64,000 nt of DNA, from assembly GCF_035610345.1 (NCBI RefSeq), contig NZ_CP141214.1, forward strand, positions 186,001 to 250,000, given 5' to 3'. The notes below the pieces were generated by a model. The model searched no databases. It had not been told where the DNA came from and saw only the letters and a program-made list of their open reading frames with translations. The first letter of the stretch is position 1, and the number at the start of each line of letters is the position of its first letter. This document shows, in pieces, positions 5,103 through 26,798 of the stretch. This DNA is from Sinorhizobium meliloti. GTDB taxonomy: Bacteria > Pseudomonadota > Alphaproteobacteria > Rhizobiales > Rhizobiaceae. Both the position numbers and the translations under genes were made by a program.

Positions 5103-5999
5103 TCAAATCCCCGCGCTGCCGCGCAGCGCGTCGATGACGGCCCGGAGCCCCGCTGAGATGTGCTTGCGCGTCGGATAATAGATGTAGAGCCAGTTCTCCG
5201 GGGCGATCCATGCCTCCAGGCAATTGACCAGCCGTCCGCTTGCAATATAGGGCCGCGCCCGATCCTCCCAGACATAGGCGAGTGCGACCCCGGCGAGCGC
5301 CGCTTCGATCATCAATTCGTGATCATGCAGAGCGATAGGCCCGGTCGGCTCGAACTCGACGTCGCTTCCATCGCGGTTGAACCACCATGGATAGTGCGCG
5401 CCCGTCGCGAACATGTTCCGAATGCAGACATGCTGCTTCAGGTCGTCCGGCGTGGTCGGCATCGGCCGGCGCGCGAAATAGGCTGGAGATCCGACCACGG
5501 TGAAGCGCAGCCGTCGATTGATCCTCACAGCAGTCATGCCCTCGTGCAGGCTCTCGCCGAGACGGATGCCAGCGTCGAACCCTTCCTGCACGATGTCGAC
5601 GAGGCGATCGGTTGCGATGACCTCCAACACCAGTTTCGGATTCCGTTCGACCAGCGTGCCTATGATTGGTCCGAGCACGAAGGGAGCGATCGAATTCGGC
5701 GCATTGATGCGGACCTTGCCGAAGGGCGTGTCGCGGTACTGGTTGAGGGCGTCGAGTGCCGAGCCAATGCTATTGAACGCGGGGGACAGGTCCGCCAGCA
5801 GCATGGCACCGGCGTCGGTCAATGACACGCTTCGGGTGGTGCGGTTGAGCAGGCGAATGCCTATGCGAGCCTCGAGATTGGCCACGGCATGGCTGATCGC
5901 GGAGGCCGTCACGCCTCGCTCTTCGCTTGCCTTTCGGAAGCTGCGATGCCTCGCCACCGCATCGAAGGCCGCGAGTTCCGCGAGATCGGTCGTTCGCAT
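5103..5999 (-). CDS. LysR family transcriptional regulator
   Basis: 298 residues, standard LysR length. The winged HTH occupies about residues 1-60 (FRKASEERGVTASAISHAVANLE), followed by a periplasmic-binding-like effector domain. The C-terminal motifs (RRLRFTVVGSPAYF, PWWF) are typical of the subgroup often found beside oxidoreductases. It is divergent from the GlcG/HbpS relic and the two SDR genes, which are its probable targets, with a palindromic site in the 112-base intergenic region. Confidence 0.93.
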   Translation of the reverse strand: MRTTDLAELAAFDAVARHRSFRKASEERGVTASAISHAVANLEARIGIRLLNRTTRSVSLTDAGAMLLADLSPAFNSIGSALDALNQYRDTPFGKVRINAPNSIAPFVLGPIIGTLVERNPKLVLEVIATDRLVDIVQEGFDAGIRLGESLHEGMTAVRINRRLRFTVVGSPAYFARRPMPTTPDDLKQHVCIRNMFATGAHYPWWFNRDGSDVEFEPTGPIALHDHELMIEAALAGVALAYVWEDRARPYIASGRLVNCLEAWIAPENWLYIYYPTRKHISAGLRAVIDALRGSAGI

Positions 6000-6018
6000 T
6001 ACTGAACCTCATTCATGG

Positions 6019-6037
6019 TTGATCTGAGAATTATCAA
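6019..6037. promoter_or_regulatory. LysR-type palindromic site candidate
   Basis: TTGAT and ATCAA arms separated by nine bases, 20 bases upstream of the LysR ATG and 75 bases upstream of the divergent GlcG/HbpS relic. Placement and dyad symmetry suit a LysR binding site controlling both directions. This is inference; the site is AT-rich and short. Confidence 0.4.
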
Positions 6038-6111
6038 TCTAATCAGTTCAATTGAAAAGGCTCAAATTGCTCCCGTCAGCCGATCGCGATTGGCGAACAA
6101 GGGAAACAGAT

Positions 6112-6530
6112 ATGACCATCATCACAGAAACGATAACGGCCGATCAGGCGCGTCACGCGATTGCCTCTGCCGGAGCCTGCGCCGAGCGGATCGGCGTGGC
6201 AGCCAAGATCGCCGTGCTGGACGCCGGGGCGCACTCAATGCGTTCGTCCGCATGGACGCCGCGGTCCTCGGATCGATTGATCTCGCCATGCGCAAAGCCC
6301 CACTGCGGCGCTGTTCGCCGTCAGCAGCGAAGCCGTGTGGAAATATTGCAAGCCGGGAGCGCCAGCGCACAACCTGGAAGCCAGCAACGGCGGCCTGGCC
6401 CCCTTTGCGGGCGGTCTGCCGATCCACGGTGCCAATGGCGCGATGATCGGCGCGATTGGCGTGTCCCGGCGTTGCAGTACCGCAAGACCTCGAAATCGCC
6501 GAGGCCGCGGTAACCGTGCACCTTGGCTGA
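6112..6530 (+). pseudogene. GlcG/HbpS heme-binding-like protein, multiply frameshifted
   Basis: The protein can be read only by switching frames. It starts MTIITETITADQARHAI to about 6232, then DAAVLGSIDLAMRKA in a second frame to about 6306. It continues as AVSSEAVW and GGLPIHGANGAMIGAIGVS in a third frame to about 6468, then returns to the second frame (GVAVPQDLEIAEAAV) and ends at a TGA at 6528. These pieces, in order, make a normal-length GlcG/HbpS (heme-degrading/haem-binding) domain of about 140 residues. At least three indels separate them, so the gene is dead unless these are assembly errors. It is first in the unit with the SDR genes. Confidence 0.8.
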
Positions 6531-6575
6531 CACCCGCCTTCTGCCTCTTCCTCACGGTTCACAAAGGACCATTCC

Positions 6576-7379
6576 ATGATCAAAACCATTCTCATCACCG
6601 GCGCTGGCTCCGGTTTCGCTGAAGCCGCCGCCATCGGCATGGCCAAGGCCGGTCACATCATCATTGCCACCGCGCAGATCGCTCCCCAGGTTGCGGCGCT
6701 ACGGAACAAGGTGGCCGAACTCGGCCTCGACAATATCCGGGTGGAGAAACTCGATCTGCTCGATCCCTACGACGTGGCCTTCGCCCAACGCTTCGACATC
6801 GATGTCCTCTGGAACAACGCCGGCATCGGCGAGAGCGGTCCGATCAGCGAGATCCCGATCGACCTCGTCCGCCGCAACTACGAAACCAACGTCTTCAAGC
6901 CGCTCGAACTCACGCAGGGCTTCATCGCCAAATGGATGAAGCAGAAGAAGCGCGCGAAGATCGTCTTCACCTCATCGATGGGTGGTCTGTTCACCCCGGC
7001 CGGCTGGGGCACCTATGTGTCGACCAAGCACGCGCTGGAGTCTATCGCCGAAGCCATTGCCCAGGAGGTCGCTCCCTTCGGCATCAAGGTCCAGACCATC
7101 AATCCCGGCGCCTATCTGACCGGCTACAACGAGACGATGGCAGACACGGCGTTCCGCTGGCTGGACGACAACAGGAACTTCACCAAGCGCGATGAGCTGC
7201 GTGCCACCTTCGACGCGCTGCTGGCGTCACCGCAAGGGCACCTCGATCCACAGGAGATGATCGACCGCATGATCGCGATCGTGCCGGCGGACACGGGCAA
7301 GTTCCGCAATGTGTGCCCGCAGTTCGTTGAGGACATGCTGAAGGAAGCGCAAGCCACGGCTTGGACGGCGGAAATCTGA
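6576..7379 (+). CDS. Short-chain dehydrogenase/reductase (SDR)
   Basis: 267-residue classical SDR. The cofactor motif TGAGSGFAE lies at residues 8-16, the NNAG motif at 80-83, and the catalytic Ser133/134, Tyr147 and Lys151 are in place (YVSTK). Substrate is unknown. It lies 46 bases after the GlcG/HbpS relic and 67 bases before a second SDR, all facing away from the LysR gene, so all are probably under that regulator. The FAE variant after the Gly motif is slightly unusual for the family. Confidence 0.9.
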   Translation: MIKTILITGAGSGFAEAAAIGMAKAGHIIIATAQIAPQVAALRNKVAELGLDNIRVEKLDLLDPYDVAFAQRFDIDVLWNNAGIGESGPISEIPIDLVRRNYETNVFKPLELTQGFIAKWMKQKKRAKIVFTSSMGGLFTPAGWGTYVSTKHALESIAEAIAQEVAPFGIKVQTINPGAYLTGYNETMADTAFRWLDDNRNFTKRDELRATFDALLASPQGHLDPQEMIDRMIAIVPADTGKFRNVCPQFVEDMLKEAQATAWTAEI

Positions 7380-7396
7380 TCCTCCCCTCAATCCCG

Positions 7397-7427
7397 GAGC
7401 GGCGGCCCGGCAAACGGGGCCGCTCCC
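7397..7427 (+). terminator. Intercistronic hairpin between the two SDR genes
   Basis: GGAGCGGC (7397-7404) pairs perfectly with GCCGCTCC (7420-7427) around a 15-base loop and is followed by a short pyrimidine tract CCTTTC. It may be a weak terminator or an mRNA-stabilising hairpin that lowers expression of the second SDR. Confidence 0.5.
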
Positions 7428-7446
7428 TTTCACAAGGAAGTTTACC

Positions 7447-8271
7447 ATGAAAAACTGGTTCATCACGGGCGCGTCGCGCGGTTTCGGCGCCCTCATTGCC
7501 GAACGGGCGCTGGCCAAGGGAGATGCCGTCGTCGCGACCGCCCGCAGCGCACAGGCGATCACCGATCGCTTCGCCAGCCATCCCAATCTGCTTGCCGTTT
7601 CCCTTGACGTCACGAACGAAGATCAGGCCGCTGCCGCCGCCGCTGCCGCGACCGAGCGTTTCGGCCGGATTGACATCCTCTTGAACAATGCCGGGTTCGG
7701 GTTGATGGGCGCAGTGGAGGAGGCCACCGCGGCGGAGATCGAAGCGGTGTATCGCACCAATGTGTTCGGATTGCTGAACGTGACCCGCGCGGTCCTGCCT
7801 CATATGCGCGAAGCGCGGTCAGGCCGCATCCTCAACATCTCTTCGATCGGCGGCTATCGCGGCGCGGCAGGATTTGGCGTGTATAGCTCGACTAAGTTCG
7901 CAGTCGAGGGACTGTCCGAAGCGTTGCACGCAGAGCTTGCTCCGCTCGGCATTCATGTGACGGTGATCGAGCCGGGTTATTTCCGAACCGATTTCCTCGA
8001 CGCCTCCTCGCTGTCAACCAGTCCCGCCCGGATAGCGGACTATGACGGCACCGCTGGCAGGGTTCGGCGGGCTGCGCTCGAGCTCAACCATAGCCAGCCG
8101 GGCGACCCGTCCAAACTCGCCGATGTGTTGGTCGCTTTCGTCGATACGGCCAGCCCGCCGGTGCGGCTACCGCTGGGCAGCGACACCGTCGCCGCCATCG
8201 AGGCGAAACACGCCGCGGATGCCCGCATCCTCGCGGAATGGCGGAGCGTTTCGGTGTCGACCGACTTCTGA
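7447..8271 (+). CDS. Short-chain dehydrogenase/reductase (SDR), second copy type
   Basis: 274 residues with TGASRGFG at 7-14, NNAG at 80-83, Ser132/133, Tyr146 and Lys150 (YSSTK). The C-terminal extension of about 30 residues is usual for the oxidoreductase subgroup that includes many uncharacterised SDRs. An eight-alanine run at residues 61-68 is encoded by a GC-repetitive tract (about 7627-7650). AAGGAAG lies just before the ATG. Not closely similar to the preceding SDR, so it is not a recent duplication. Confidence 0.9.
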   Translation: MKNWFITGASRGFGALIAERALAKGDAVVATARSAQAITDRFASHPNLLAVSLDVTNEDQAAAAAAAATERFGRIDILLNNAGFGLMGAVEEATAAEIEAVYRTNVFGLLNVTRAVLPHMREARSGRILNISSIGGYRGAAGFGVYSSTKFAVEGLSEALHAELAPLGIHVTVIEPGYFRTDFLDASSLSTSPARIADYDGTAGRVRRAALELNHSQPGDPSKLADVLVAFVDTASPPVRLPLGSDTVAAIEAKHAADARILAEWRSVSVSTDF

Positions 8272-8883
8272 TGGAAGGAGAATGCCTTCCTGAATCGCGT
8301 TAGCGCAGTGATACGTGGTGCATACCACAAATCACATTGTTGAAGCACGACGATCGCTCCCTGTCCGGCGCCCACGACCTGCAGCGTGGTCGCCGGACAT
8401 GTCTGCTTTTAAGGAGCCGGCAAAGACGTACTTAAAGGCCGGGATGGGGGCGCAAAGCGGCCATGCGCGCTTCGCCTGTGAGAGTGTGCTTCGGGCCGAT
8501 TTGCGCCGTAGCGCGAGCAAATTCGGATGGCTGCAACGGGTCGATCTTTCCGGTTCCCTCAGTCGCGAGAGGGTGGTGAGCGGAAGTCTGTCGAGAGGGG
8601 GCTAAGAGGCCGTTATGCGCCGTCATCTCAGGCGTTCGATGAGCCAGGGTTCAAGCCTGGAAACAGTCGGCCCGTTTTCTTGATTGTGACGATGAGGCCT
8701 TGATACGGCAAGGCGTCCTCCGGCCTTTAAGCTTGACAGAGCCTACGCACGACGCTTCAGGTAAGGTGCAGTGCCTTCTCAAGTGGTTCCAGAGCGAAGG
8801 CCACGCAGTCGGACAATGGTCGCGCAGAACCCGGGAGCTCTCTTAGCTCCCAATAGGATCCTGGCTCGCCTTTACGGCGCTCG
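8272..8883. other. 612-base intergenic stretch without a convincing gene
   Basis: Only short overlapping frames occur and none has family resemblance. It includes the short string CATGTCTGCTTTT (about 8398), whose first 12 bases also occur near 5003 in another intergenic stretch. Small GC-rich dyads occur but no clear terminator. Probably spacer or decayed sequence. Confidence 0.4.
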
Positions 8884-9963
<1,080 letters not shown>

Positions 9964-11747: not shown

Positions 11748-12950
11748 ATGAAAAACTGGAAGAAACTGGCAATCGGCGCTGCGTTCGCGACGTCGCTTCT
11801 CGCAGGCACTGCATCGGCGGAAACTGTCCGCTTCTGGTATCACTTCGACAATCCCGAAAATCCGATGGATGATCTGGTCGCCAAGTTCGAGGCCGCCAAT
11901 CCGAGCATCGAGATCGAGGCGGAAAACGTTCCTTGGAACAGCTATTACGATAATCTCTACACCGCGCTTGTCGGGGGCAATGCCCCGGATGCTGCCATGG
12001 TGAAGCTGTTTGCGCAGCCGCGTCTCATCGAAATGGGAGCGCTGGAGCCGATCGGCGAGCGCATCGATGCCTGGCCCGGCAAGGCGGACCTGCTCGACAA
12101 CCTGCTGGAACTCAACAAGGGTCCGGACGGCCAGCAGTATTATCTACCGATCCAGTACGTCGTGCTTTATCTCTATTATCGCGCCGACCTCTTCGAGCAG
12201 GCGGGCCTAAAGCCGCCTGCGACCTGCGAGGAGTTGCGCGACGCGGCAATAAAGCTCACCAAGGCGCCTGAGACCTACGGCTTCGGCCTGCGCGGCGGAA
12301 AGGGTGGATGGGACCAGTGGGGCGCCTTCGTGCTCTCGCAGGGCGCCAAGCTCGAGTCCGGTGGTCTAACGACGCCGGAGGCGATTGCCGCCAACCAGTG
12401 GCTGATCGATCTCTTCCAGAAGGACAAGGTCATTCCGCCATCGGCACCGAACGATGGCTTCCAGGAAATCACCGGTGCCTTCAAGAATGGCACGACGGCG
12501 ATGACGATCCATCACATCGGCTCTTCCAACGACATGGTCAAGGCGCTTGGCGACAAGGTTTCCGCCGTGCCGGTGCCGGAATGCGGCGGTGGGCGCTGGA
12601 CGTCCTACGGCGATGAGTCCTTGGCTATCTTCACTTCGTCGGAGGTGAAGGATGCGGCGTGGAAGTGGATATCCTTCCTGGCCGAGGGTGACAACAACGT
12701 GGCCTTCAACAAGGCGACCGGCCAGATGACCGTGACGAAGAGCGGCGCAGAAAATTGGACGCTGCATGAGCGTCGTTTCGTGGACGCGACAGTTCAGTCA
12801 CTGCCGTTCGCCCATGTGCTGCCGCAGAACACGGCGACGTCGGAGTTCGTCAATACGGCCTGGCAGACGGCGATGCAGCAAGCGCTGACCGGCCAGATCA
12901 CCTCCGAGCAGATGATGCAGCAGCTCGAGGCGCTATTCGCGCAGCAGTAG
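11748..12950 (+). CDS. ABC transporter substrate-binding protein, family 1 (carbohydrate)
   Basis: 400-residue extracellular solute-binding protein. The N-terminal Sec signal (KNWKKLAIGAAFATSLLAG, cleavage near ASA-E at about residue 25) is followed by a MalE-like fold (VRFWYHFDNPENPMDDLVAKFE). GGAGGAGAC precedes the ATG. It captures the sugar in the periplasm for the permeases downstream. A strong hairpin follows the gene, consistent with its transcript being kept at higher level than the permease transcript. Confidence 0.93.
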   Translation: MKNWKKLAIGAAFATSLLAGTASAETVRFWYHFDNPENPMDDLVAKFEAANPSIEIEAENVPWNSYYDNLYTALVGGNAPDAAMVKLFAQPRLIEMGALEPIGERIDAWPGKADLLDNLLELNKGPDGQQYYLPIQYVVLYLYYRADLFEQAGLKPPATCEELRDAAIKLTKAPETYGFGLRGGKGGWDQWGAFVLSQGAKLESGGLTTPEAIAANQWLIDLFQKDKVIPPSAPNDGFQEITGAFKNGTTAMTIHHIGSSNDMVKALGDKVSAVPVPECGGGRWTSYGDESLAIFTSSEVKDAAWKWISFLAEGDNNVAFNKATGQMTVTKSGAENWTLHERRFVDATVQSLPFAHVLPQNTATSEFVNTAWQTAMQQALTGQITSEQMMQQLEALFAQQ

Positions 12951-12986
12951 CCCCCGGAGCGAGCAGTCTGCGCACGCTCCACCCTT

Positions 12987-13020
12987 GCCATCCGCCCGCC
13001 CGAACCTCAGGGCGGATGGC
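12987..13020 (+). terminator. Perfect 11-bp hairpin after the binding-protein gene
   Basis: GCCATCCGCCC (12987-12997) pairs perfectly with GGGCGGATGGC (13010-13020) around a 12-base loop. There is no U-run. Hairpins in this position in sugar ABC operons protect the upstream binding-protein mRNA and attenuate the permease genes; that role is inferred here. Confidence 0.75.
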
Positions 13021-13050
13021 TTCCGAATGCCAACTGCCGGGAACGACCGC

Positions 13051-13974
13051 ATGACCGCGACAACCGCTCCATCTCCGACGACGCCTGCCATTCCGACGCC
13101 CTGGAGCGTGCGGCTGATGCCATACATGCTGCTGGCGCCGGCCGTGGTCGTCACGCTGTTCATCGTCTTCTTTCCCATGGCCCAGGCGGTCTTCACCAGT
13201 CTCTACGATCTTGTCCTATGGAAGCCGAACGCCAGCCGTTTCGTCGGGTTCGGGAATTATGTGAAGCTCTTCGCCGATCCCGTCTTCTGGACTGCACTCG
13301 GCAATACCGCCATCTGGATCGGCCTGACAGTGCCGCTTCAGATGGGGCTCGGCCTGTTGACTGCGCTGCTGCTCAACCGGGAATTTCCCTGGCGGGGACT
13401 TGCGCGCGCCCTCATCATCATTCCGTGGGCCCTGCCGAGCGTGGTGATCGCGTTGATGTGGCGCTGGATCTACGATCCCAATACGGGCGTCTTAAACGAT
13501 ATCTTCATCTATCTCTCTGTCGTGCAGTCCGCCGTGCCGTGGCTTGCCGATCCGAATCTAGCGCTTTATGCGATCATAGCGACGCTCACCTGGCAGGGCT
13601 TTCCCTTCTTCGCCGTCATGATCCTTGCCGGCCTCCAGGGAATTCCACGGAGCCACTATGAGGCCGCGTCCATCGACGGCGCCTCTCCATGGCGCCAGTT
13701 CGTGCATATCACGCTGCCTGGTATCGCCCCGGTGCTGGCGACGGCGGGACTGCTTCGCGTCATTTGGGTCGCCAATTCCATGGACGTCATCTTCGTCATG
13801 ACCGGCGGCGGCCCGGGCTATGCAACCCATACGCTGCCGCTCTACGCCTTCGTCCGCGCCCGCCAGAACCTCGATTTCGGCTACGGCACGACGATCGCCG
13901 TGACTTTCACGATCCTGCTCGGCGCGATCGTCGCCGTCTATCTTGCCCGTACCATGCGGGAGGTTGAGCGATGA
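13051..13974 (+). CDS. Carbohydrate ABC transporter permease (MalF type)
   Basis: 307 residues with six predicted membrane segments. The EAA loop that contacts the ATPase is near the C-terminal third (HYEAASIDGASPWRQF, ending in LPGIAPVL). ATG 13051 follows GGGAACG and fits the short hydrophilic leader before the first membrane helix; ATG 13027 is an in-frame alternative. Its stop overlaps the start of the second permease by four bases. Confidence 0.9.
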   Translation: MTATTAPSPTTPAIPTPWSVRLMPYMLLAPAVVVTLFIVFFPMAQAVFTSLYDLVLWKPNASRFVGFGNYVKLFADPVFWTALGNTAIWIGLTVPLQMGLGLLTALLLNREFPWRGLARALIIIPWALPSVVIALMWRWIYDPNTGVLNDIFIYLSVVQSAVPWLADPNLALYAIIATLTWQGFPFFAVMILAGLQGIPRSHYEAASIDGASPWRQFVHITLPGIAPVLATAGLLRVIWVANSMDVIFVMTGGGPGYATHTLPLYAFVRARQNLDFGYGTTIAVTFTILLGAIVAVYLARTMREVER

Positions 13975-17532: not shown

Positions 17533-18504
17533 GTGCTGCATCATATCGTCATTGCCGTCTATCAAGATTTCGAATTGCTGGATGCGACCGGCCCGGCTTC
17601 AGTTTTCGCATCCGCCAACCAGGCACTCGCAGAGGATGGAGAACCTGGACGCTATGCCGTGCATTTGGCCTCGCCGACTGGCGGTGCGGTGCCGAGTAGC
17701 AGCGGGGTCGTCGTCGAAACCAAACCACTGGCGAAGGTGCCACGACAGGTGGACACAATCCTGGTGGCCGGGGCCGAGGCCGGCGCGGTCACGGCAGCAA
17801 CCCGGACGCCGGAATTAGGGCGGTGGTTGTTGCGGAGCGCCTCGTCCGTCAGACGACTCGGGTCGGTTTGCGCCGGCTCCTTTGTGCTCGCAGCGGCGGG
17901 ACTGGTGGACGGTAAGCGTGTTGCCACACACTGGAGCGCATGCGAAGCGCTCGCGCGACTCTACCCCTCCCTTACGGTCGACGCCGATGCACTCTATGTC
18001 GTCGACGGCAACGTCTGGACATCGGCGGGAGTAACCACCGGTATCGACATGGCCCTCGCCATGGTCAGCGAGGATCTCGGCAGCGCGCTTGCCAGTCGGG
18101 TCGCCAAGCGCCTAGTCCTCTACGCACGCCGTCCCGGCTATCAGTCTCAGTCCAGCCCGCTGCTGCGTGCCCAGGCGAAAGCCGATGCTCCTCTCGCAGA
18201 TCTCCTGGTGTGGGCACAAGCCAATCTCGATACCGCGCTGGATGTGCCGAGCCTTGCAGCCAGGGTTGGCCTCTCGGAGCGGACGTTTTACAGACGGTTT
18301 GTCGCCGCGATCGGCGAGACGCCGGCACAGTATATCGAGACCGTGCGGCTGGACGCGGCGCGTATCTTGCTCTCCCAAGAACTTCCGTTGAAGGAAATCG
18401 CAAGGCGGGTGGGGCTTGCGCCGACCGCACGCTTCACGCAGGTCTTCCAAAGACGCTTCGGGGTGACGCCGCGACTCTTCCGTGAGACCCATACGAACAG
18501 GTGA
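17533..18504 (+). CDS. GlxA-type AraC family regulator (DJ-1/PfpI-like N-terminal domain)
   Basis: 323 residues. Residues 1-190 form a class I glutamine-amidotransferase-like (DJ-1/PfpI) sensor domain with the nucleophile-elbow Cys in SVCAGSFVLAAAG. The C-terminal 100 residues hold two AraC HTH motifs (VPSLAARVGLSERTFYRRF, and the second around LKEIARRVGL). The start is GTG at 17533 with AAAGGATGG upstream. Such proteins regulate amine or aldehyde metabolism in several bacteria; the target here is probably the divergent membrane protein or itself. Confidence 0.9.
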   Translation: MLHHIVIAVYQDFELLDATGPASVFASANQALAEDGEPGRYAVHLASPTGGAVPSSSGVVVETKPLAKVPRQVDTILVAGAEAGAVTAATRTPELGRWLLRSASSVRRLGSVCAGSFVLAAAGLVDGKRVATHWSACEALARLYPSLTVDADALYVVDGNVWTSAGVTTGIDMALAMVSEDLGSALASRVAKRLVLYARRPGYQSQSSPLLRAQAKADAPLADLLVWAQANLDTALDVPSLAARVGLSERTFYRRFVAAIGETPAQYIETVRLDAARILLSQELPLKEIARRVGLAPTARFTQVFQRRFGVTPRLFRETHTNR

Positions 18505-18600: not shown

Positions 18601-19110
18601 TTATCTCTTCAAGCGCAGGACCATGATTAACTCGTCATTCTCCGCATCGTGACCCAGTAAGCCGTTCGGAATGCGGCCAACCTCTAGGAATCCGTGACGC
18701 TGATAGAAGCGTATCGCTGCCGAATTCTCGGCATTTACGGCAAGCTCCAGCTGCAGTGCTCCCCGGTCTCGTGCATGCTCCGTAACCTCATGCAAAAGGG
18801 TTGCCGCAACCCCGGTCCCTCGTTCGCCTTTCCGCACATACACGCTGACAAGCCTTGCACGATGCGCCATTTTCCTTGCACGCTCAAATCTTAGCCCCAT
18901 CATGCCGACGGGCTCACCATTCAAGAATGCGGCGAAAACTGGCTGGTCGAGATGTCGGCGCCATTCGCGGTCGGAGAGATGGACCCAATCGCCATATACA
19001 CTCGCAAACGAAAGCGGTTCATGTGAAAGCGCCTCCAGGCGTATGCGGCGAAACACGTCTACGTCCCGGACTGACAGGCGTCTGATTACCGCCTCTTCTT
19101 CAATCGACAC
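18601..19110 (-). CDS. GNAT family N-acetyltransferase
   Basis: 169 residues from a GTG start with GGAGG five bases upstream; the ATG further upstream at 19260 is unlikely because it overlaps the preceding gene without a ribosome-binding site. The acetyl-CoA loop is in SVYVRKGERGTGVAATLL, and the late N-S-A-A-I-R-F-Y motif is present. It lies 71 bases after the unassigned 469-residue gene, on the same strand as the LuxR-type unit, so it may be part of that operon. Acceptor unknown. Confidence 0.87.
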   Translation of the reverse strand: MSIEEEAVIRRLSVRDVDVFRRIRLEALSHEPLSFASVYGDWVHLSDREWRRHLDQPVFAAFLNGEPVGMMGLRFERARKMAHRARLVSVYVRKGERGTGVAATLLHEVTEHARDRGALQLELAVNAENSAAIRFYQRHGFLEVGRIPNGLLGHDAENDELIMVLRLKR

Positions 19111-19181
19111 ATCGACCTCCAACAAAAGTTCCAGGTCAGGTCGGACGAAATCCCAGCATCGAAGCCGCTCAGCATCCTCGA

Positions 19182-20591
19182 TCACGAGCCCGACCACTGC
19201 CACTCCTCGGACCCCAAGGTGATAGCTCCGCTGGCGATGTGCCCTGAAAGGTCCGCCCAAATCGGATCGCTGATGAAACTTGCGAGGTCACCGCTCGATT
19301 GCACCAAAGGCATCGCCGCGTATGTTTCAAGAGGCGTCTCGGCTCCTCTGAAGAGCTTGATCTCCCGGAAGGGATTGCCGTTGAGAGGCTTCAAGACACG
19401 ATGGCCCCAAAGCCCAGGTTGGTCGTCTTCACGCATTTCGGTCAGGAAATCGAAATCACCCGATCGCTCAAGCCCGATGGCGGCGAGATAGCGCATAAGC
19501 GGGTAGTAGATCGTCTGGCGACATCCCCCAAGCGCTCTCACGCCGGGCAAAATGGAAGTCACCAGGAACACAGTATAGAGGCTCGGCACGATCGCTCGCT
19601 GCCGAAGCGCCGCAGCGATGCTGTCCGGCCGGAACTTCACTTCGAAGTCCGACGGACACTTGGCCCTGAGGGCGTTGTCCTGGAGGCGGAGCGGAACAAT
19701 CCTCCCTTTTTCCATGCGCCAGAAGAGATCGGTCGTCCTGCGGACCCAACCCTGCCACGGTCCAATGTTCAGGCGATCCATGGAATCCAGGATGCTCTCG
19801 GCGACCTTTCCGTCTCCGATGAAATCAGCCGACATCCCGGATCCAGCGTCTTCGAGATGGTCGGCGACCAGGTCTGCGATGTCGAAATCATCGAGCTGAA
19901 GCAGCTTGATGGGGGAGGGGAGCTTGCCGCGCCAGAGGGTTTGATTGGCCGCCCTGATTGCGTCGGTCGCAGAAGCAAATTCCTCCGACGGCAGTTCGCC
20001 GAGGAGACCGGCGGCAGTGGCATTTGGTGCCGGATCGCCTTTGGCATTCGATAGCGCGAAGCGATAGGGACCATTCAACCCGCAGATGCTGAATGAATCC
20101 ATTCGGCTCCGGGGTAAGCCGAAGACGTTGAGGGGCTCGTCTTGAAGCCAGAGCCAGCCGGGACCCTTCTTTGCCTTTTCCGAGAAACTGACCGTCGAGG
20201 CATGATAGGTGATGTACCATTCGCGGCCATGGGCCTGCAGGCCTAGCAGGCTGAACAGATGCGTGTAGAACGCATCCGGCTCGATCAGCAGCAGGCAATG
20301 CGGACCGGTCTGCAGTACCGGTGCCCCCATCAACTGAAGGCTGGCGCTTCGAGCTTCCTCAGGGTCGTAACCGGATCTGAGAGCTGCCCGCTCGACGCAA
20401 CGGCATAGCAGCTCCATTGCATGGCGACGCGCGCAACACTCGGAATGGAATTTCTCGACGTCGTGGGCAACCGACGCGTAGTGTCGAAGGGGACATTCCC
20501 AATAGGAGGTAAGATGCGGCATCAAGGCAGACAACGTGCGGCGCACGTCGGCTGCGCTGCAATGTTCGCCGGCCTTTCCGATTATCGTCAT
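19182..20591 (-). CDS. Unassigned 469-residue protein of the LuxR-linked unit
   Basis: I do not recognise the family. The protein appears soluble, with no signal peptide or membrane helix. The first 80 residues contain several Cys and His (YWECPLRHYASVAHDVEKFHSECCARRH), which could bind metal. The middle contains aromatic-rich stretches (REWYITYHAS, GPGWLWLQDEPLNVFG) and the C-terminal part is acidic and helical. Its ATG overlaps the methyltransferase-like stop by four bases, so the two are translationally coupled and probably act together. Possible roles are a biosynthetic or modifying enzyme under LuxR control; that is inference from context only. Confidence 0.8.
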   Translation of the reverse strand: MTIIGKAGEHCSAADVRRTLSALMPHLTSYWECPLRHYASVAHDVEKFHSECCARRHAMELLCRCVERAALRSGYDPEEARSASLQLMGAPVLQTGPHCLLLIEPDAFYTHLFSLLGLQAHGREWYITYHASTVSFSEKAKKGPGWLWLQDEPLNVFGLPRSRMDSFSICGLNGPYRFALSNAKGDPAPNATAAGLLGELPSEEFASATDAIRAANQTLWRGKLPSPIKLLQLDDFDIADLVADHLEDAGSGMSADFIGDGKVAESILDSMDRLNIGPWQGWVRRTTDLFWRMEKGRIVPLRLQDNALRAKCPSDFEVKFRPDSIAAALRQRAIVPSLYTVFLVTSILPGVRALGGCRQTIYYPLMRYLAAIGLERSGDFDFLTEMREDDQPGLWGHRVLKPLNGNPFREIKLFRGAETPLETYAAMPLVQSSGDLASFISDPIWADLSGHIASGAITLGSEEWQWSGS

Positions 20592-21658
20592 TTCATGACG
20601 CCGAGCTTGGGGGCGAGCAGCATCATGGTATTCGCGCTACGCCACGTCAGATGAGGAGCCAAGGCCTCTGCCTCGGTATCGATGATCGCCGCTGGCAATC
20701 GTTCGTAGCAATAGTTCGGTGGAATTGCCGGCTTCACCATCAGCGAAACCAATTCCAACATGGAAGCGCGGGAGTTGGATGACACGATGGTGTAGAAATT
20801 CCCGCTGTTCCAGGTCAGCACTGAGTATCGGAAAAACGCCCGCAGAGCGGCTACCGTGGTCGCCAGATCGACTTGAAGATCCGTCATCGTGTTAAGGACT
20901 TCATCCTTTTTCTTGGAGATGTGACCTGTGGAGAAGAATCGGGTCTTGAAAAGCTCGTCCTTCTGCCGCTCGCGTTCCTCATAGATGTCGTGGTCTTCAT
21001 GCGCGAGCTTCTGCACCTGCACGAGGAGACCGCCAGACCGGATGCGAGGAACAACGAACTCCAGCTGCTTTAGCCGATCACGGTCGTACATCTGAAACGT
21101 CGTGTCTTCCAACAGCACGTCAAAGCCGCCCCGAAATGGGAGAAGATCCTTGTCGGTCGCGTATCGATCGTCGTCCAACTCAAAGAATGGGCCGTGGAAG
21201 AAGTGCGCGTGCTCGCTTCCCCGGTTCGCGAAGAACGACGCTCGATTGGCTGCGGTTGGACTGCAGCAGAGCGCCTCGATGCGACCATCGCCAAGCGTGG
21301 CGAGCGTGCGCGCGAGGCAACCGGTGCCCGTGCCCAGCGTGTATATTGTCGTTGGGGAGGCGTTGCGCGCCCAGGTCCTTAAGGCGAAGGAAAGTAGTGC
21401 AGCACCCAGACGGCACTCCTCTTCAAGCCTATAGGGAATACTGGCAAAGTAATGGCTGTCAAAATTACCCCAAAGACGCCGATGCGTATCCGCGAAAATT
21501 GCGCTCTCGAGATCAAAGTCGAGCAGGCTCATGTCGATTTTCGGTTCGGCAAGGTCCGGTGCTCCACCCTTTCCGCTGGCGGTTCTTTCGAAGAACTCTG
21601 CGAACGCGGTAAGTCTGGGAGCATTCCGCCAGTGTTCAATAGTTATTCGATCCACCAT
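20588..21658 (-). CDS. SAM-dependent methyltransferase-like protein
   Basis: 356 residues from an ATG with GGGAGGT five bases upstream; longer starts at 21697 and 21706 lack such a site. The Rossmann glycine motif is at the stretch TIYTLGTGTGCLAR (around residue 105), followed by an acidic region and FDVLLEDTTF, matching class I methyltransferases. The later part (SGGLLVQVQK, then a long helical segment and WNSGNFYTIVSS) is larger than a minimal methyltransferase, so a substrate domain is present. Acceptor unknown. Sits between the LuxR-type regulator and the overlapping 469-residue gene. Confidence 0.7.
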   Translation of the reverse strand: MVDRITIEHWRNAPRLTAFAEFFERTASGKGGAPDLAEPKIDMSLLDFDLESAIFADTHRRLWGNFDSHYFASIPYRLEEECRLGAALLSFALRTWARNASPTTIYTLGTGTGCLARTLATLGDGRIEALCCSPTAANRASFFANRGSEHAHFFHGPFFELDDDRYATDKDLLPFRGGFDVLLEDTTFQMYDRDRLKQLEFVVPRIRSGGLLVQVQKLAHEDHDIYEERERQKDELFKTRFFSTGHISKKKDEVLNTMTDLQVDLATTVAALRAFFRYSVLTWNSGNFYTIVSSNSRASMLELVSLMVKPAIPPNYCYERLPAAIIDTEAEALAPHLTWRSANTMMLLAPKLGVMK

Positions 21659-21793
21659 CGCTACCTCCCGATATAGCCGTCGGGTGGCGTGCTTCATCTC
21701 AGCCATCGTCGAGATGTTTTATTTGCCGCCCGCATCTGCCATGCGTGAGCTTCCGATCTCATCTGTGGACCGAGCGGAGCGGGTAGCCAATCT

Positions 21794-21809
21794 ACCTAAT
21801 TCGGGAGGT
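21794..21809. promoter_or_regulatory. Possible LuxR-type box upstream of the methyltransferase-like gene
   Basis: ACCT and AGGT arms separated by eight bases lie about 140 bases upstream of the methyltransferase start and downstream of the luxR-type gene. The outer arms match the ends of ACCTG...CAGGT lux boxes but the inner bases do not. Weak evidence. Confidence 0.25.
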
Positions 21810-21865
21810 TGACCTTCCGGGAATGTCGAAAGAGAGGGACGGGCCGCGAATGCGATCGCGCGCGG

Positions 21866-22597
21866 TCAGATTTTGATCAGCTCGAGGAAGCTTGCCTTGG
21901 CAACGGCGTGATAACTTGTAAAAGCACCGAGTTTTTGTCTTGCCGATCGCAGGTACAACTTCACCGCGTTTTCTGAGATGCCTAGATCCGCTGCTATTTG
22001 TTTGGAAATCCGACCTGTTGCAAGAAGCTGAAGGCACTGGCTTTCGCGCCTGGAGAGGTTCCGGTAGCGGCCAATCTCTCGAAGACCGCTTGCAGACATC
22101 ATCGTCTCATGAAGATAGTGGGAAAGGATCTGCAGCTCGTGAATGCTCGAAGCGCGTAGCCGCGACCAGTCGCGCTTGGGCAGGTTCGAGGTCACGGAAA
22201 AGAGAGACCGTTCGCCTTTCGAGCCTCGGATGGGGATCGTCAAGCCGTAGGGGCCAATATCGTAGGAACGCGCTTCCTTAAACAATCGGTAAACCTGTGC
22301 TGACCGCCGATCGAGAGAGGACCAGTCCACCGGGAGGAACCCCCAACGGACGACGTCAATCACCGGGTCTATGTCTAAATAGCCCTTGTCGATGTATGTC
22401 TCAGTCCACGTATCTGGATATGTCGTGCAGTAGTCGGGGTACAAACCCGACCTGCCTCCGTTGCGAACCACAAGCAATGTCATGTGCGACAGGCCGTGTC
22501 GCACGCAAAGTTCGCACAATGCGGGGTGAAGGTCCTCGCGATGCTTCGCTGCGTGGAGCGTCCTCAGGGACAGTGAGAGTCTGCGGTTGTCGACCAT
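21866..22597 (-). CDS. LuxR family regulator with autoinducer-binding domain (LuxR solo)
   Basis: 243 residues. The N-terminal domain keeps the residues that line the acyl-homoserine-lactone pocket of TraR/LuxR: Trp64, Tyr68, Asp77, Pro78, Trp92 and a Gly near 118, with the expected spacing (W-x3-Y, D-P, 15 residues from Asp to Trp). The C-terminal LuxR HTH is at about residues 180-235 (RISKQIAADLGISENAVKLYLRSARQKLGA). No LuxI-type synthase is in the window, so it is a solo as far as can be seen. The downstream methyltransferase-like and unassigned genes are its likely targets. No strong ribosome-binding site precedes the ATG. Confidence 0.9.
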   Translation of the reverse strand: MVDNRRLSLSLRTLHAAKHREDLHPALCELCVRHGLSHMTLLVVRNGGRSGLYPDYCTTYPDTWTETYIDKGYLDIDPVIDVVRWGFLPVDWSSLDRRSAQVYRLFKEARSYDIGPYGLTIPIRGSKGERSLFSVTSNLPKRDWSRLRASSIHELQILSHYLHETMMSASGLREIGRYRNLSRRESQCLQLLATGRISKQIAADLGISENAVKLYLRSARQKLGAFTSYHAVAKASFLELIKI

Positions 22598-23203: not shown

Positions 23204-25375
23204 TCAAACGCCGAGGCTGTTGTTCTTCAACGGCAATTGTCGGATGCGCTTGCCAGTGGCCGCAAAGACCGCATTCAGAACCGCTGGTCCCGCTACCGCG
23301 ATCGTCGGCTCGCCGACGCCGCCCCAGAAATTCCCCGATGGCATGAGAATGGTTTCGACGGCCGGCATCTGGTCCATACGCATGACCTCGTAGGTATCGA
23401 AATTCTCCTGTTCGACGCGACCGCCATTGATCGTGCACTCTCCATAGAGACAGGCTGAAAGACCATAGACGAACGAGCCCTCCACCTGCCGCTCGGCTTG
23501 GGCGGGATTTACAATGTGGCCCGGGTCCGTCGCCGCGACGATGCGGTGGATCTTAAGCTGACCGTCTGTGACCGAGACTTCCGCCGCGGCTGCGACGTAG
23601 CTGCCGAATCCCATGATCTGGGCAAGGCCGCGATGGATCCCGTTTCCTGCCGGCTTTTCCCAGCCGACCCGTTCGGCGACTGCCTCGAGAACGGCAAGGT
23701 GCTTGGGATGGTCGACGAGCAGCTTGCGGCGGAATTCGAGTGGATCGATGCCGGCCTCATGCGCCAGTTCATCGATGAAGCACTCGACGTAAAGCGCGTT
23801 CTGATTGAGGTTAACCCCACGCCAGAAACCGGGAGGAACTGGCGGATTGCGCATGGCGTAATCAATCAGGAGATTGGGAATGGTGTAGCCAAAGGCGCCC
23901 TCCGTCCCGCCATCGTTCAGACCTTGGAAGACGGCCGGATCGCGACCGGTTTCGCGCACTTCGGCGCGAAGTGGCCACAGAATTGACTGGCCGCTGATCC
24001 GCATATGAAGAGCAGCCACGTTACCACTGGCGTCGAGCGCAGCTCTGAAACGACATTGCGTTACCGGGTGGTAGGCACCGTGAAGCATGTCCTCTTCGCG
24101 CGACCAGATCAGCTTCACCGGTGTGCCCGGGAGTTCCTTCGCGAGCTTTACAGCCTGACGGACGTATTCCTGATAGTTGCCGCGCCTGCCGAAGCCGCCG
24201 CCGAGGTGGAGCTTGTAGACCTCGCATTGCTCGATCTGCAGGCCGGATGCTTCGGCCGCGGCGGCAAGGCTCATCTCTCCGTTTTGTGTTGGCACCCAGA
24301 CTTCGCATTTGTCCGTCGTATATCGCGCCGTAGCGTTCATCGGCTCCATGGTGGCATGGGCTTGGTACGGAAAGGAGTAGGTCGCCGTCACCACTTTGGC
24401 GTCGCCGTCAAGCACGGCGCGCGCATCGCCGATCGCCGTGCCAGCGACGACGTCCTCCGCATCCAGTCCTTCTCTCAGCATCGCGGCAATCGTTTCGCTG
24501 GTGACGTTCGTGTTCGGGCCTTCATCCCAAACGATCGGCAGCGCATTAAGGGCGGAATGCGCCTGCCACCACGTGTCGGCAACGACGGCAACGGCCGTGT
24601 CATCGACCTGGACGACCTTTCGTACGCCGGGCATTCCAGATACGACCGTCGCGTCGAAGCTTGCAACTTTGCCTCCAAAGACCGGGCAGGCCTTGATCGA
24701 GGCGTTCAACATGCCCGGTAACGTCAGATCTACGCCATAAATCTGTTTGCCTATGAGCTTGTCGCGCGTGTCGAGCCTCGGTAGCGGCTTTCCGGCGATC
24801 TTCCACTCCCGCGGTGCTTTTAGAGCGATGTTCGTCGGCAGCGGCATCTGTGCGGCTAGCGAGGTGACCGTGCCGTAAGTGACGGTGCGACCCGAAGAAG
24901 CGTGGGTGATGACACTGTTCGCGGCCGAGCACTCGTCCGCGGGCACCTCCCAAAGGCTCGCGGCAGCTGAGATGAGCATTTGCCGTGCGGCCGCTCCGCC
25001 CTCGCGCACATATTGGTGTGACTCACGAATACCGCGGCTGCCGCCGGTCGAGAAGCTGCCCCAAACGCGGTTTCGCCTTAGGCTGTCCCCGGGAGTGGGA
25101 TATTCGGTGGTCACTTTCGACCAATCGCACTCGAGCTCTTCGGCCACAAGTTGTGCGAGACCAGTCAATGTTCCCTGGCCCATTTCCGAACGAGCGATGC
25201 GGATCACCACGGTGTCATCCGGGCGGATGAGCACCCAAGCGTTGATCTCAGGAAGGACGGCGGAGCGCCCCTCAGCCTGCGCCGCAAAGGGCACATGGAA
25301 GCCGAGCGAGAGGCCGCCGGCCGTGGCGGCGGTGCCAATGAGGAATTTGCGGCGCGACAAGGTTGCGACTGTCAT
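23204..25375 (-). CDS. Molybdopterin-binding subunit of xanthine dehydrogenase-family hydroxylase (IorB type)
   Basis: 723 residues with a twin-arginine signal (SRRKFLIGTAATAGG), so the enzyme is exported folded to the periplasm. Molybdopterin motifs include GGGFGRRGNYQEYV, and the catalytic Glu is in GVGEP near the C-terminus. It belongs to the isoquinoline 1-oxidoreductase/aldehyde dehydrogenase subgroup in which this large subunit pairs with a separate 2Fe-2S subunit and a cytochrome c. Those two genes lie directly upstream on the same strand (10-base gap to the 2Fe-2S gene). The substrate, an aldehyde or N-heterocycle, cannot be fixed from sequence. Confidence 0.92.
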   Translation of the reverse strand: MTVATLSRRKFLIGTAATAGGLSLGFHVPFAAQAEGRSAVLPEINAWVLIRPDDTVVIRIARSEMGQGTLTGLAQLVAEELECDWSKVTTEYPTPGDSLRRNRVWGSFSTGGSRGIRESHQYVREGGAAARQMLISAAASLWEVPADECSAANSVITHASSGRTVTYGTVTSLAAQMPLPTNIALKAPREWKIAGKPLPRLDTRDKLIGKQIYGVDLTLPGMLNASIKACPVFGGKVASFDATVVSGMPGVRKVVQVDDTAVAVVADTWWQAHSALNALPIVWDEGPNTNVTSETIAAMLREGLDAEDVVAGTAIGDARAVLDGDAKVVTATYSFPYQAHATMEPMNATARYTTDKCEVWVPTQNGEMSLAAAAEASGLQIEQCEVYKLHLGGGFGRRGNYQEYVRQAVKLAKELPGTPVKLIWSREEDMLHGAYHPVTQCRFRAALDASGNVAALHMRISGQSILWPLRAEVRETGRDPAVFQGLNDGGTEGAFGYTIPNLLIDYAMRNPPVPPGFWRGVNLNQNALYVECFIDELAHEAGIDPLEFRRKLLVDHPKHLAVLEAVAERVGWEKPAGNGIHRGLAQIMGFGSYVAAAAEVSVTDGQLKIHRIVAATDPGHIVNPAQAERQVEGSFVYGLSACLYGECTINGGRVEQENFDTYEVMRMDQMPAVETILMPSGNFWGGVGEPTIAVAGPAVLNAVFAATGKRIRQLPLKNNSLGV

Positions 25376-25385
25376 GGTCAGGTCC

Positions 25386-25856
25386 TCATCTTTTCTGGGA
25401 TGCGCTGGCGGTTTCAGCGGCGAGTTTGATGGCGGCGCGGACGCGGTTATAGGTCCCGCAGCGACAAATGTTGGTAATCTCGGCGCTAATATCGTCGTCG
25501 CTCGGGCTTGGCGTGCTGCTGATGAGGGCGGCGGCCGCCATGATCATGCCAGCTTGACAGTATCCACATTGTGGAACGTCGAGCGCCAGCCATGCCTGCT
25601 GGACCGGATGGGAGCCGTCCTCGGACAGGCCTTCGATCGTGACGATCTTTTGACCTGATTCTACTGCACTGACCGGCAACGCGCAGGAGCGCGTCGCAAC
25701 ACCGTCTATATGGACTGTGCAGGCGCCGCATTGCGCTATCCCGCAGCCGAATTTGGTGCCGGTCAGACCTACCTGTTCGCGTAGTACCCAAAGAAGGGGG
25801 GTCTCGGGATCTACCTCAATATTCCGCGTCTCGCCGTTGATGGTCAATTGAGCCAT
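25386..25856 (-). CDS. 2Fe-2S subunit of molybdenum hydroxylase (IorA type)
   Basis: 156 residues holding two 2Fe-2S clusters. The plant-ferredoxin type uses Cys38, Cys43, Cys46 and Cys58 (CGIAQCGAC); the second, all-helical type uses Cys97, Cys100, Cys131 and Cys133 (CGYCQAG, CRCGTY). It passes electrons from molybdenum toward the cytochrome c encoded upstream. It lacks its own signal and is probably carried across the membrane with the Tat-signal large subunit. Family-typical length. Confidence 0.94.
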
Positions 25857-25931: not shown

Positions 25932-26324
25932 TCACTGGGTCGTCTCGCCAGGATTGCTCCGCAGATAGGAGATGATCGCCGATCGCTGCGCCGCGTCGCG
26001 AATGCTGACGCTCATCGTGGTGCCCGGCACAGCCTGGCGTGGATTGTTTAAGTAGTCTTGCAGACGCTCTTCGTCCCAGACGAATCCCGATGCGCTGAGT
26101 GCCTTCGAGTAGCGAGCGCCTTCCACACTACCGGCTGAGCGGCCAACGAGCCCGGATAGATGCGGACCGACACGGTTTTCGCCCGGATTCAGGCTGTGGC
26201 AGGAGGCGCAGCGGATGCGGAAAAGTCTCTCTCCTTCGGCAGCCGCCGGTTCCTGTGCCGGGCTTGCGCCAGGACAGAGCAGGGCACCGAGAATGGGAGC
26301 GGAGATCAGATGCTTGTTTTTCAT
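25932..26324 (-). CDS. Periplasmic c-type cytochrome, electron acceptor of the hydroxylase
   Basis: 130 residues from an ATG with GAGGA upstream. Sec signal (KNKHLISAPILGALLCPGASPAQ), heme motif CASCH (Cys39, Cys42, His43), and an axial Met in TTMSV near residue 100, as in small class I cytochromes. First gene of the cytochrome c, 2Fe-2S, molybdenum subunit run, the standard arrangement of periplasmic aldehyde-type hydroxylases that feed electrons into the respiratory chain. Confidence 0.92.
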   Translation of the reverse strand: MKNKHLISAPILGALLCPGASPAQEPAAAEGERLFRIRCASCHSLNPGENRVGPHLSGLVGRSAGSVEGARYSKALSASGFVWDEERLQDYLNNPRQAVPGTTMSVSIRDAAQRSAIISYLRSNPGETTQ

Positions 26325-26798
26325 GAACAATCCTCGGAGTTGGCGGCTGCGAGGTAGGGCATGAACACCTCCCATGCAGATCGCTTCGACAACCGAAGGA
26401 TAGTTGGCGTTTGTCGCAGAGATTTGCCGGTGGAACCGCCGAGTTGTAACGAATTATCTCAAAGCATGCTGGATGAGGCCGCGCGCGAGACAGGCTGGCC
26501 TGGTGCCACAGGCGCAGGGCGATCGAGTTCCCACGCCACGACGGTTGGTTTGGCGCTGCGGCTTTGCTCCGCCCGCGCGAGTTTCCCTGGTGAAAGTGTC
26601 AAGCTGAATTTCGGCTCTGCTGAGCTTTGTTTTTGACGGATATTCGGCCGCTACTCGGATTTGAGTTATATTTCCGGCACCTTACACTAAGCTGTCCGAC
26701 ACATGCTGATACAAATTACCATAGAATCTGGGAAAATATTGCGACAAGTTGCGGCTAAGCTTCAACCATCAAATCATCCCTCAAGAAAGTTCTGAAGC
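26325..26798. other. Gene-free, AT-richer promoter region
   Basis: No gene with family support. Bases 26640-26800 are clearly more AT-rich than the surroundings and probably contain the promoters of the cytochrome operon and of the small gene starting at 26799. No clear dyad or known box was identified. Confidence 0.4.

Follow-up and report, generated by a model that had tools for sequence, protein, structure and literature searches.

What does a LuxR-type regulator with no luxI beside it control on a rhizobial plasmid, and do the genes that follow it make a small molecule? We addressed this question in Sinorhizobium meliloti, in a 64,000-nucleotide stretch of contig NZ_CP141214.1 (positions 186,001 to 250,000, that is, C3:186001-250000 of the 6.63-Mb genome; hereafter the window). 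An original prediction, made from the letters of this stretch, had proposed a three-gene unit in which a LuxR regulator governs a methyltransferase-like gene (here MT) and a 469-residue gene that could not be placed (here X). All three open reading frames (ORFs) are present with the positions and strand it gave, and a fourth gene has to be added to them: luxR, MT, X and a GNAT acetyltransferase gene, all on the minus strand, form a real, conserved plasmid operon that LuxR very probably controls. What was observed is that the genes run the same way and overlap, that an operator is conserved, that the regulator is of the acyl-homoserine lactone (AHL) type and that the folds are predicted with confidence. 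The gene order recurs in relatives and the operator scores above shuffled DNA, indicating that the unit is more than a chance arrangement. On balance, we consider it probable that this is a quorum-responsive biosynthetic operon of rhizobial plasmids; its regulation is well supported, and its chemistry is read from folds and neighbours. No description of the operon was found in the open-licence PMC literature, a search that did not cover subscription journals.

Regulator and operator

The regulator (21866..22597, minus strand, 243 residues) carries an Autoind_bind domain (1.4e-28) and a GerE domain (3e-14), both over the curated cut-offs, and its sequence matches in the PDB include LasR, RhlR and TraR chains. 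The five residues named in the original prediction, W64, Y68, D77, P78 and W92, are exactly as claimed. Together with G118 they are unchanged in 22 of 22 aligned rows, 21 of them distinct because the window's own copy entered twice; we take them to correspond to the conserved pocket residues W57, Y61, D70, P71, W85 and G113 in TraR numbering. The protein thus shares domains and pocket residues with AHL regulators of the TraR, LasR and RhlR type, but unlike theirs its unit has a 24-bp operator of its own.

This operator, the lux-box-like sequence CAACCTCCCGAATTAGGTAGATTG (21788..21811, minus strand), matches at 9 of 12 dyad positions and lies about 130 bp ahead of the 356-residue MT start. Alignment of 17 luxR–MT intergenic regions, the window's included, revealed a single conserved block with the consensus CAATCTACCGAATTCGGTAGATTG amid diverged DNA, and positions 6, 16, 19 and 22–24 are identical in all 17 loci. 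A dyad search under strict rules flagged nothing in the window, where the operator came to light only once relatives had been aligned.

To score the operator, we used a weight matrix that left out the locus being scored. It was the best upstream match in 21 of the 22 loci in which MT directly precedes X, at 21.1 to 36.8 bits, whereas the best of 200 shuffles per region, which preserved base composition only, reached at most 17.4 bits. Only L060 lacked it upstream of MT, and it was present in four of the five MT–X loci without luxR directly upstream. The alternative gene order described below gave no operator match in its seven scorable loci, the eighth, L072, being unscorable because it has no MT. 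At 14 bits, single weak operator-like matches occur elsewhere in L055, L063 and L077. Across the 6.6-Mb genome, the operator is the only site with at most two mismatches to ATCTNCCGAATTCGGNAGAT, and two further sites appear at three mismatches.

The relative L056 ties the operator to an AHL synthase. There the operator stands ahead of both MT and luxI, the second copy (17920-17943) lying about 55 bp before a luxI ORF that begins at 17998 (L056:17920-18660). This luxI is confirmed by Pfam (Autoind_synth, 2.6e-36), and the adjoining luxR is 45% identical to the window's. Such an arrangement is expected of an AHL circuit, and the regulator–operator pair is therefore most likely AHL-responsive, as judged from sequence. 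Conserved operator, invariant pocket and the relative's luxI with the same operator together make it very probable that the unit is under the control of a LuxR of the AHL type.

The claim that no LuxI is present holds for the neighbourhood but not for the genome, which has 10 Autoind_bind matches and two luxI matches. One of the latter, a TraI-like gene at C3:111211 near a trb cluster, shares the window's replicon and is 57% identical to TraI of S. meliloti ml59. A TraR-like gene also lies on this replicon, at C3:121678; the window's LuxR is distinct from its product, with only about 29% identity over 181 residues.

Several relatives show other luxR arrangements. Locus L061 groups one luxI and three luxR-like ORFs just upstream of MT–X (5462-9278). 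In plasmid pC101c luxR is in two pieces (L024, about 12943-13800), and in L054 (3825-7595) a full-length luxR stands apart from the unit, 4.9 kb upstream, with a 35-residue C-terminal luxR piece near the operator. L058 has its MT gene split over two ORFs. The unit seems to decay or to be interrupted in some plasmids, as in L024, L054 and L058.

The three predicted enzymes

MT (20588..21658, minus strand) has 356 residues from the ATG kept in relatives, which GGGAGG precedes, and 372 from the first ATG, at 21706; the shorter form is the one originally predicted, as is its overlap of four bases with X. Structure prediction with fold comparison, which had been proposed as a check, gave a Rossmann methyltransferase fold with the glycine-rich loop LGTGTG, placing the predicted protein in the class I S-adenosylmethionine (SAM)-dependent methyltransferase superfamily. 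We describe it as CmoA-like. Matches to CmoA (4gek) had E values of 0.0095 with 16 sequences, 0.026 with the Escherichia coli relative, 0.08 with 49 sequences and 0.47 with the window's MT; in the last two of these searches CmoA was outscored by a short match to a DUF4255 protein. In contrast to the carboxy-SAM synthase CmoA and the O-methyltransferases CysG and BelI, MT has additional N- and C-terminal parts and its own invariant motifs, EDTTFQM and WNSGNFY. By inspection, the His-His-Asp metal site of CysG, as given in passages of PMC11408123, is not apparent at the EDTTFQ stretch. Among PHROGs, only weak matches were found, for the window's MT.

Relatives of MT also occur in enterobacterial plasmids, in a two-gene cassette with a LysE exporter (L114:4076-5605 in E. 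coli plasmid CP077345.1; L117:4995-6584 in Klebsiella). In the E. coli genome collection the cassette is found on plasmids only, and in enterobacteria it is often on plasmids of about 5.7 kb. A link of this cassette to microcin 15m/A15 was considered and dropped, as these names did not occur in the best 10 of 1,634 open-licence papers.

X (19182..20591, minus strand) has no Pfam or NCBIfam match, in agreement with the view that it could not be placed, but its predicted fold does place it. The fold matches BshC, the enzyme that adds cysteine in bacillithiol synthesis (PF10079), over 360 of 469 residues, and the best fold matches are BshC and class I synthetases. We therefore describe X, on the strength of the modelled structure, as a probable ligase with a BshC fold and a likeness to class I aminoacyl-tRNA synthetases. 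The original prediction had named a fold match to a well-known enzyme family as refuting it; such a match exists in the letter, though the sequence motifs of BshC are absent. The fold match thus hints at the type of reaction but does not point to a known pathway. PF10079 is not among the four Pfam families matched by any of the 49 X sequences, under filters that drop most matches above 0.1. A phage origin finds no support: X has no match in 50,697 phage records.

The GNAT N-acetyltransferase gene (18601..19185, minus strand; about 194 residues, or 219 if read from a TTG at 19260) starts with GTG at 19185 and overlaps the X stop by four bases; an annotated orthologue in pC101c has identical length and overlap. 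Its Acetyltransf_1 domain (5.3e-19) assigns it to the GNAT acetyltransferase family.

Beyond the operon, the segments 23204-25856 and 25932-26375, upstream and on the same strand, encode a molybdopterin-binding protein, a 2Fe-2S protein and a c-type cytochrome, named after an annotated relative. A GlxA-type AraC regulator gene (17533-18504) reads towards the 3' end of the unit and adjoins it in L051 and L052 too.

Gene orders in relatives

A search with X scored 8000 candidates and found 310 homologues, the best 120 of which were listed, as were the best 120 of 301 for MT; the X and MT alignments hold 49 sequences each, the window's included. If partial matches and the window's own genome are counted, X occurs in 38 of 394 genomes sampled from the family; it also occurs in 144 plasmid records. 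We read 37 neighbourhoods, the window's included, comprising 36 of 43 X places plus G309; those left out were G023, G361, the second places of G295 and G723, G757, G497, G563 and G270. G023 holds a full-length X of 45% identity at a contig end with an MFS-type ORF adjoining. Plasmid contexts were taken from PLSDB gene tables, which are not complete.

This neighbourhood search, another check that had been proposed, gave three orders. In order I (22 of 37 loci; X identity 50–100%), X is immediately preceded by MT on the same strand. Of these 22 loci, 17 have LuxR upstream, L054 being counted through its 35-residue fragment, and 14 have GNAT downstream. An ABC importer whose binding protein is of the oligopeptide type accompanies 10 of them and CapA six. 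In order II, the alternative order (8 loci; 38–45%), AraC and MFS genes and CapA are present in all eight, an amino-acid-type ABC binding protein in seven, and MT in seven, divergent and about 3.4 kb away in six and 8 kb downstream in one. Order III comprises seven distant loci (25–29%), with a same-strand GNAT upstream in two by BLAST, Pfam-confirmed in L082. The original prediction had said that it would be refuted by X homologues lying mostly outside LuxR-linked units. The closer family does not show this, since LuxR is upstream at 17 of 30 loci with at least 38% identity; the linkage is qualified by the AraC/MFS arrangement found instead at eight of these 30 and by the seven distant loci without a LuxR match.

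The window's replicon also carries an orthologue of the ABC–CapA module (C3:136700-143937, L112), 60–70 kb from the unit; identity is 74–87% for CapA, the binding protein and one ORF each for a permease and an ATPase, and 58–67% for two more ORFs.

A published locus proved to be related. The second traI of pAt15955, traI-At2, is called uncharacterised in passages of PMC7856919, which report no AHL seen by a TraR biosensor. A luxI–MT–X–GNAT series (L105:953-4675) opens with this gene, At15955_RS25205, whereas the window's unit begins with luxR. The corresponding stretch of pAtA6 was matched over its full length, luxI included, in seven of eight plasmid records found, all from Agrobacterium. The pAtA6 and pAtCFBP5877a loci differ from the window's in having no operator match at 14 bits.

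Candidate functions of the operon

We propose that AHL-bound LuxR would bind the dyad and turn the operon on, the AHL coming here probably from the TraI-type luxI of the same replicon or from neighbouring cells. The CmoA-like enzyme would draw on SAM in making or modifying a small compound resembling an amino acid; the BshC-fold enzyme would activate an amino-acid carboxylate with ATP and join it to an amine; and the GNAT would acetylate the product or an intermediate, for maturation or self-protection. In mycothiol synthesis MshD follows MshC, acetylating as a maturation step. In relatives, the product would probably be exported by the linked MFS protein and imported by the linked ABC system, with CapA as part of the import module. 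Most likely, judging from the modelled folds, the operon makes an amino-acid-derived metabolite, which the MFS gene of all order II loci and the enterobacterial MT–LysE pairing also favour. That the unit makes or modifies a small molecule had been predicted; its enzymes are indeed of small-molecule types, and metabolite production is what we infer from them.

Several findings weigh against this interpretation. GNAT was not found downstream in eight of the 22 order I loci, and the order III loci have no MT or LuxR match. MT is found without X, with 198 plasmid records against 144 for X. The ABC–CapA link may be positional only, because 269 plasmid records contain CapA relatives, in 136 cases with an identity of at least 60%. 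Comparison of X with BshC profiles in hhalign gave a probability of 0.3%, the level of unrelated controls, and the GQQAG and EDHD motifs occur in none of 49 X sequences, as against all of 28 BshC sequences (relatives of Bacillus BshC). With neither profile match nor motifs, the ligase chemistry is drawn solely from the fold.

The operon might instead make no metabolite and change the quorum signal or the machinery of transfer, for instance through modification of AHLs or of tra proteins. The unit directly follows traA-traF-traB-traH both in pAvF25b and in Rhizobium sp. B230/85, a TraA relative occurs in six of 37 neighbourhoods, and 120 of the 144 plasmid records that match X are classed as conjugative. 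In pSymA of S. meliloti ml59, traI lies upstream of the unit. Large rhizobial plasmids are often conjugative anyway, however, the window's own 19.5-kb neighbourhood has no TraA relative, and the presence of exporters (MFS, LysE) and importers close by is in keeping with a product that diffuses; we think a role in conjugation unlikely. Small genes of rhizobial tra regions do modulate transfer, according to passages of PMC4294206 and PMC9601222. The modulators RcgA/RcgR and RHE_PA00163-165 are, like the window's unit, genes of no assigned function in such regions, but were rejected as a match, as their domains differ by description (alpha/beta hydrolase, transmembrane, COG4634, DUF433 and XRE).

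Quite unlikely, in our estimate, is a low-molecular-weight thiol analogous to mycothiol or bacillithiol, for which X would join cysteine to an amino sugar or similar and GNAT would acetylate. The predicted fold of X would suit it, and a ligase with a GNAT after it is reminiscent of MshC/MshD. The missing BshC motifs argue against it, quorum control would be odd for a redox buffer, and bacillithiol synthesis itself was discarded, with PF10079 matched in none of 398 genomes of the phylum at E 0.001, the window's own included (BshA and BshB were not searched for). N-methyl-bacillithiol, in passages of PMC12719100, shows that a methyltransferase can act on such thiols. We also set aside an opine-metallophore (staphylopine-type) product, suggested by the MFS and ABC layout, because in predicted fold X best matches BshC and class I synthetases.

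MT might cyclise SAM or act on it as a lyase, for instance as an azetidine-2-carboxylate synthase. This first idea for MT was unsupported by PDB sequence searches and is now a minor, improbable rival. In its favour, MT–LysE cassettes suggest an amino-acid product straight from SAM, a GxxxG loop is common to the E. coli relative and AzeJ, and passages of PMC11794875 place such genes often near N-acetyltransferase and transporter genes. Against it, no AzeJ or VioH chain (8RYD-8RYG) appeared in sequence matches to E 10, where the presence of these entries in the sequence set was unchecked, nor any among the best 50 fold matches; the window's MT has GTGTG, not GxxxG only, and is longer. Action on tRNA by the CmoA-like and aminoacyl-tRNA-synthetase-like pair appears very improbable: MT–LysE cassettes and linked MFS genes suggest a secreted small molecule, and to our knowledge BshC, the best fold match of X, does not use tRNA.

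Returning to the biosynthetic reading, a wider and speculative version, which we hold to be doubtful, is that the operon represents a mobile, plasmid-borne class of SAM-derived amino-acid metabolites, either antimetabolites or opine-like private compounds, built on a CmoA-like core. Enterobacteria would have the enzyme and LysE only; rhizobia would add a new BshC-fold amino-acid ligase, an acetyltransferase, plasmid quorum control and a dedicated importer, thereby enabling plasmid carriers to produce, tolerate and take back the compound at high density.

Rhizobium LuxR solos are deferred to a second paper in passages of PMC13133039. If our interpretation of the operon as quorum-responsive and biosynthetic is true, it would provide a function for one of the many rhizobial LuxR solos and for the traI-At2 locus of pAt15955. 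The BshC fold would then reach a second enzyme family, outside bacillithiol synthesis, and quorum sensing on symbiosis plasmids and megaplasmids would govern a metabolite besides plasmid transfer.

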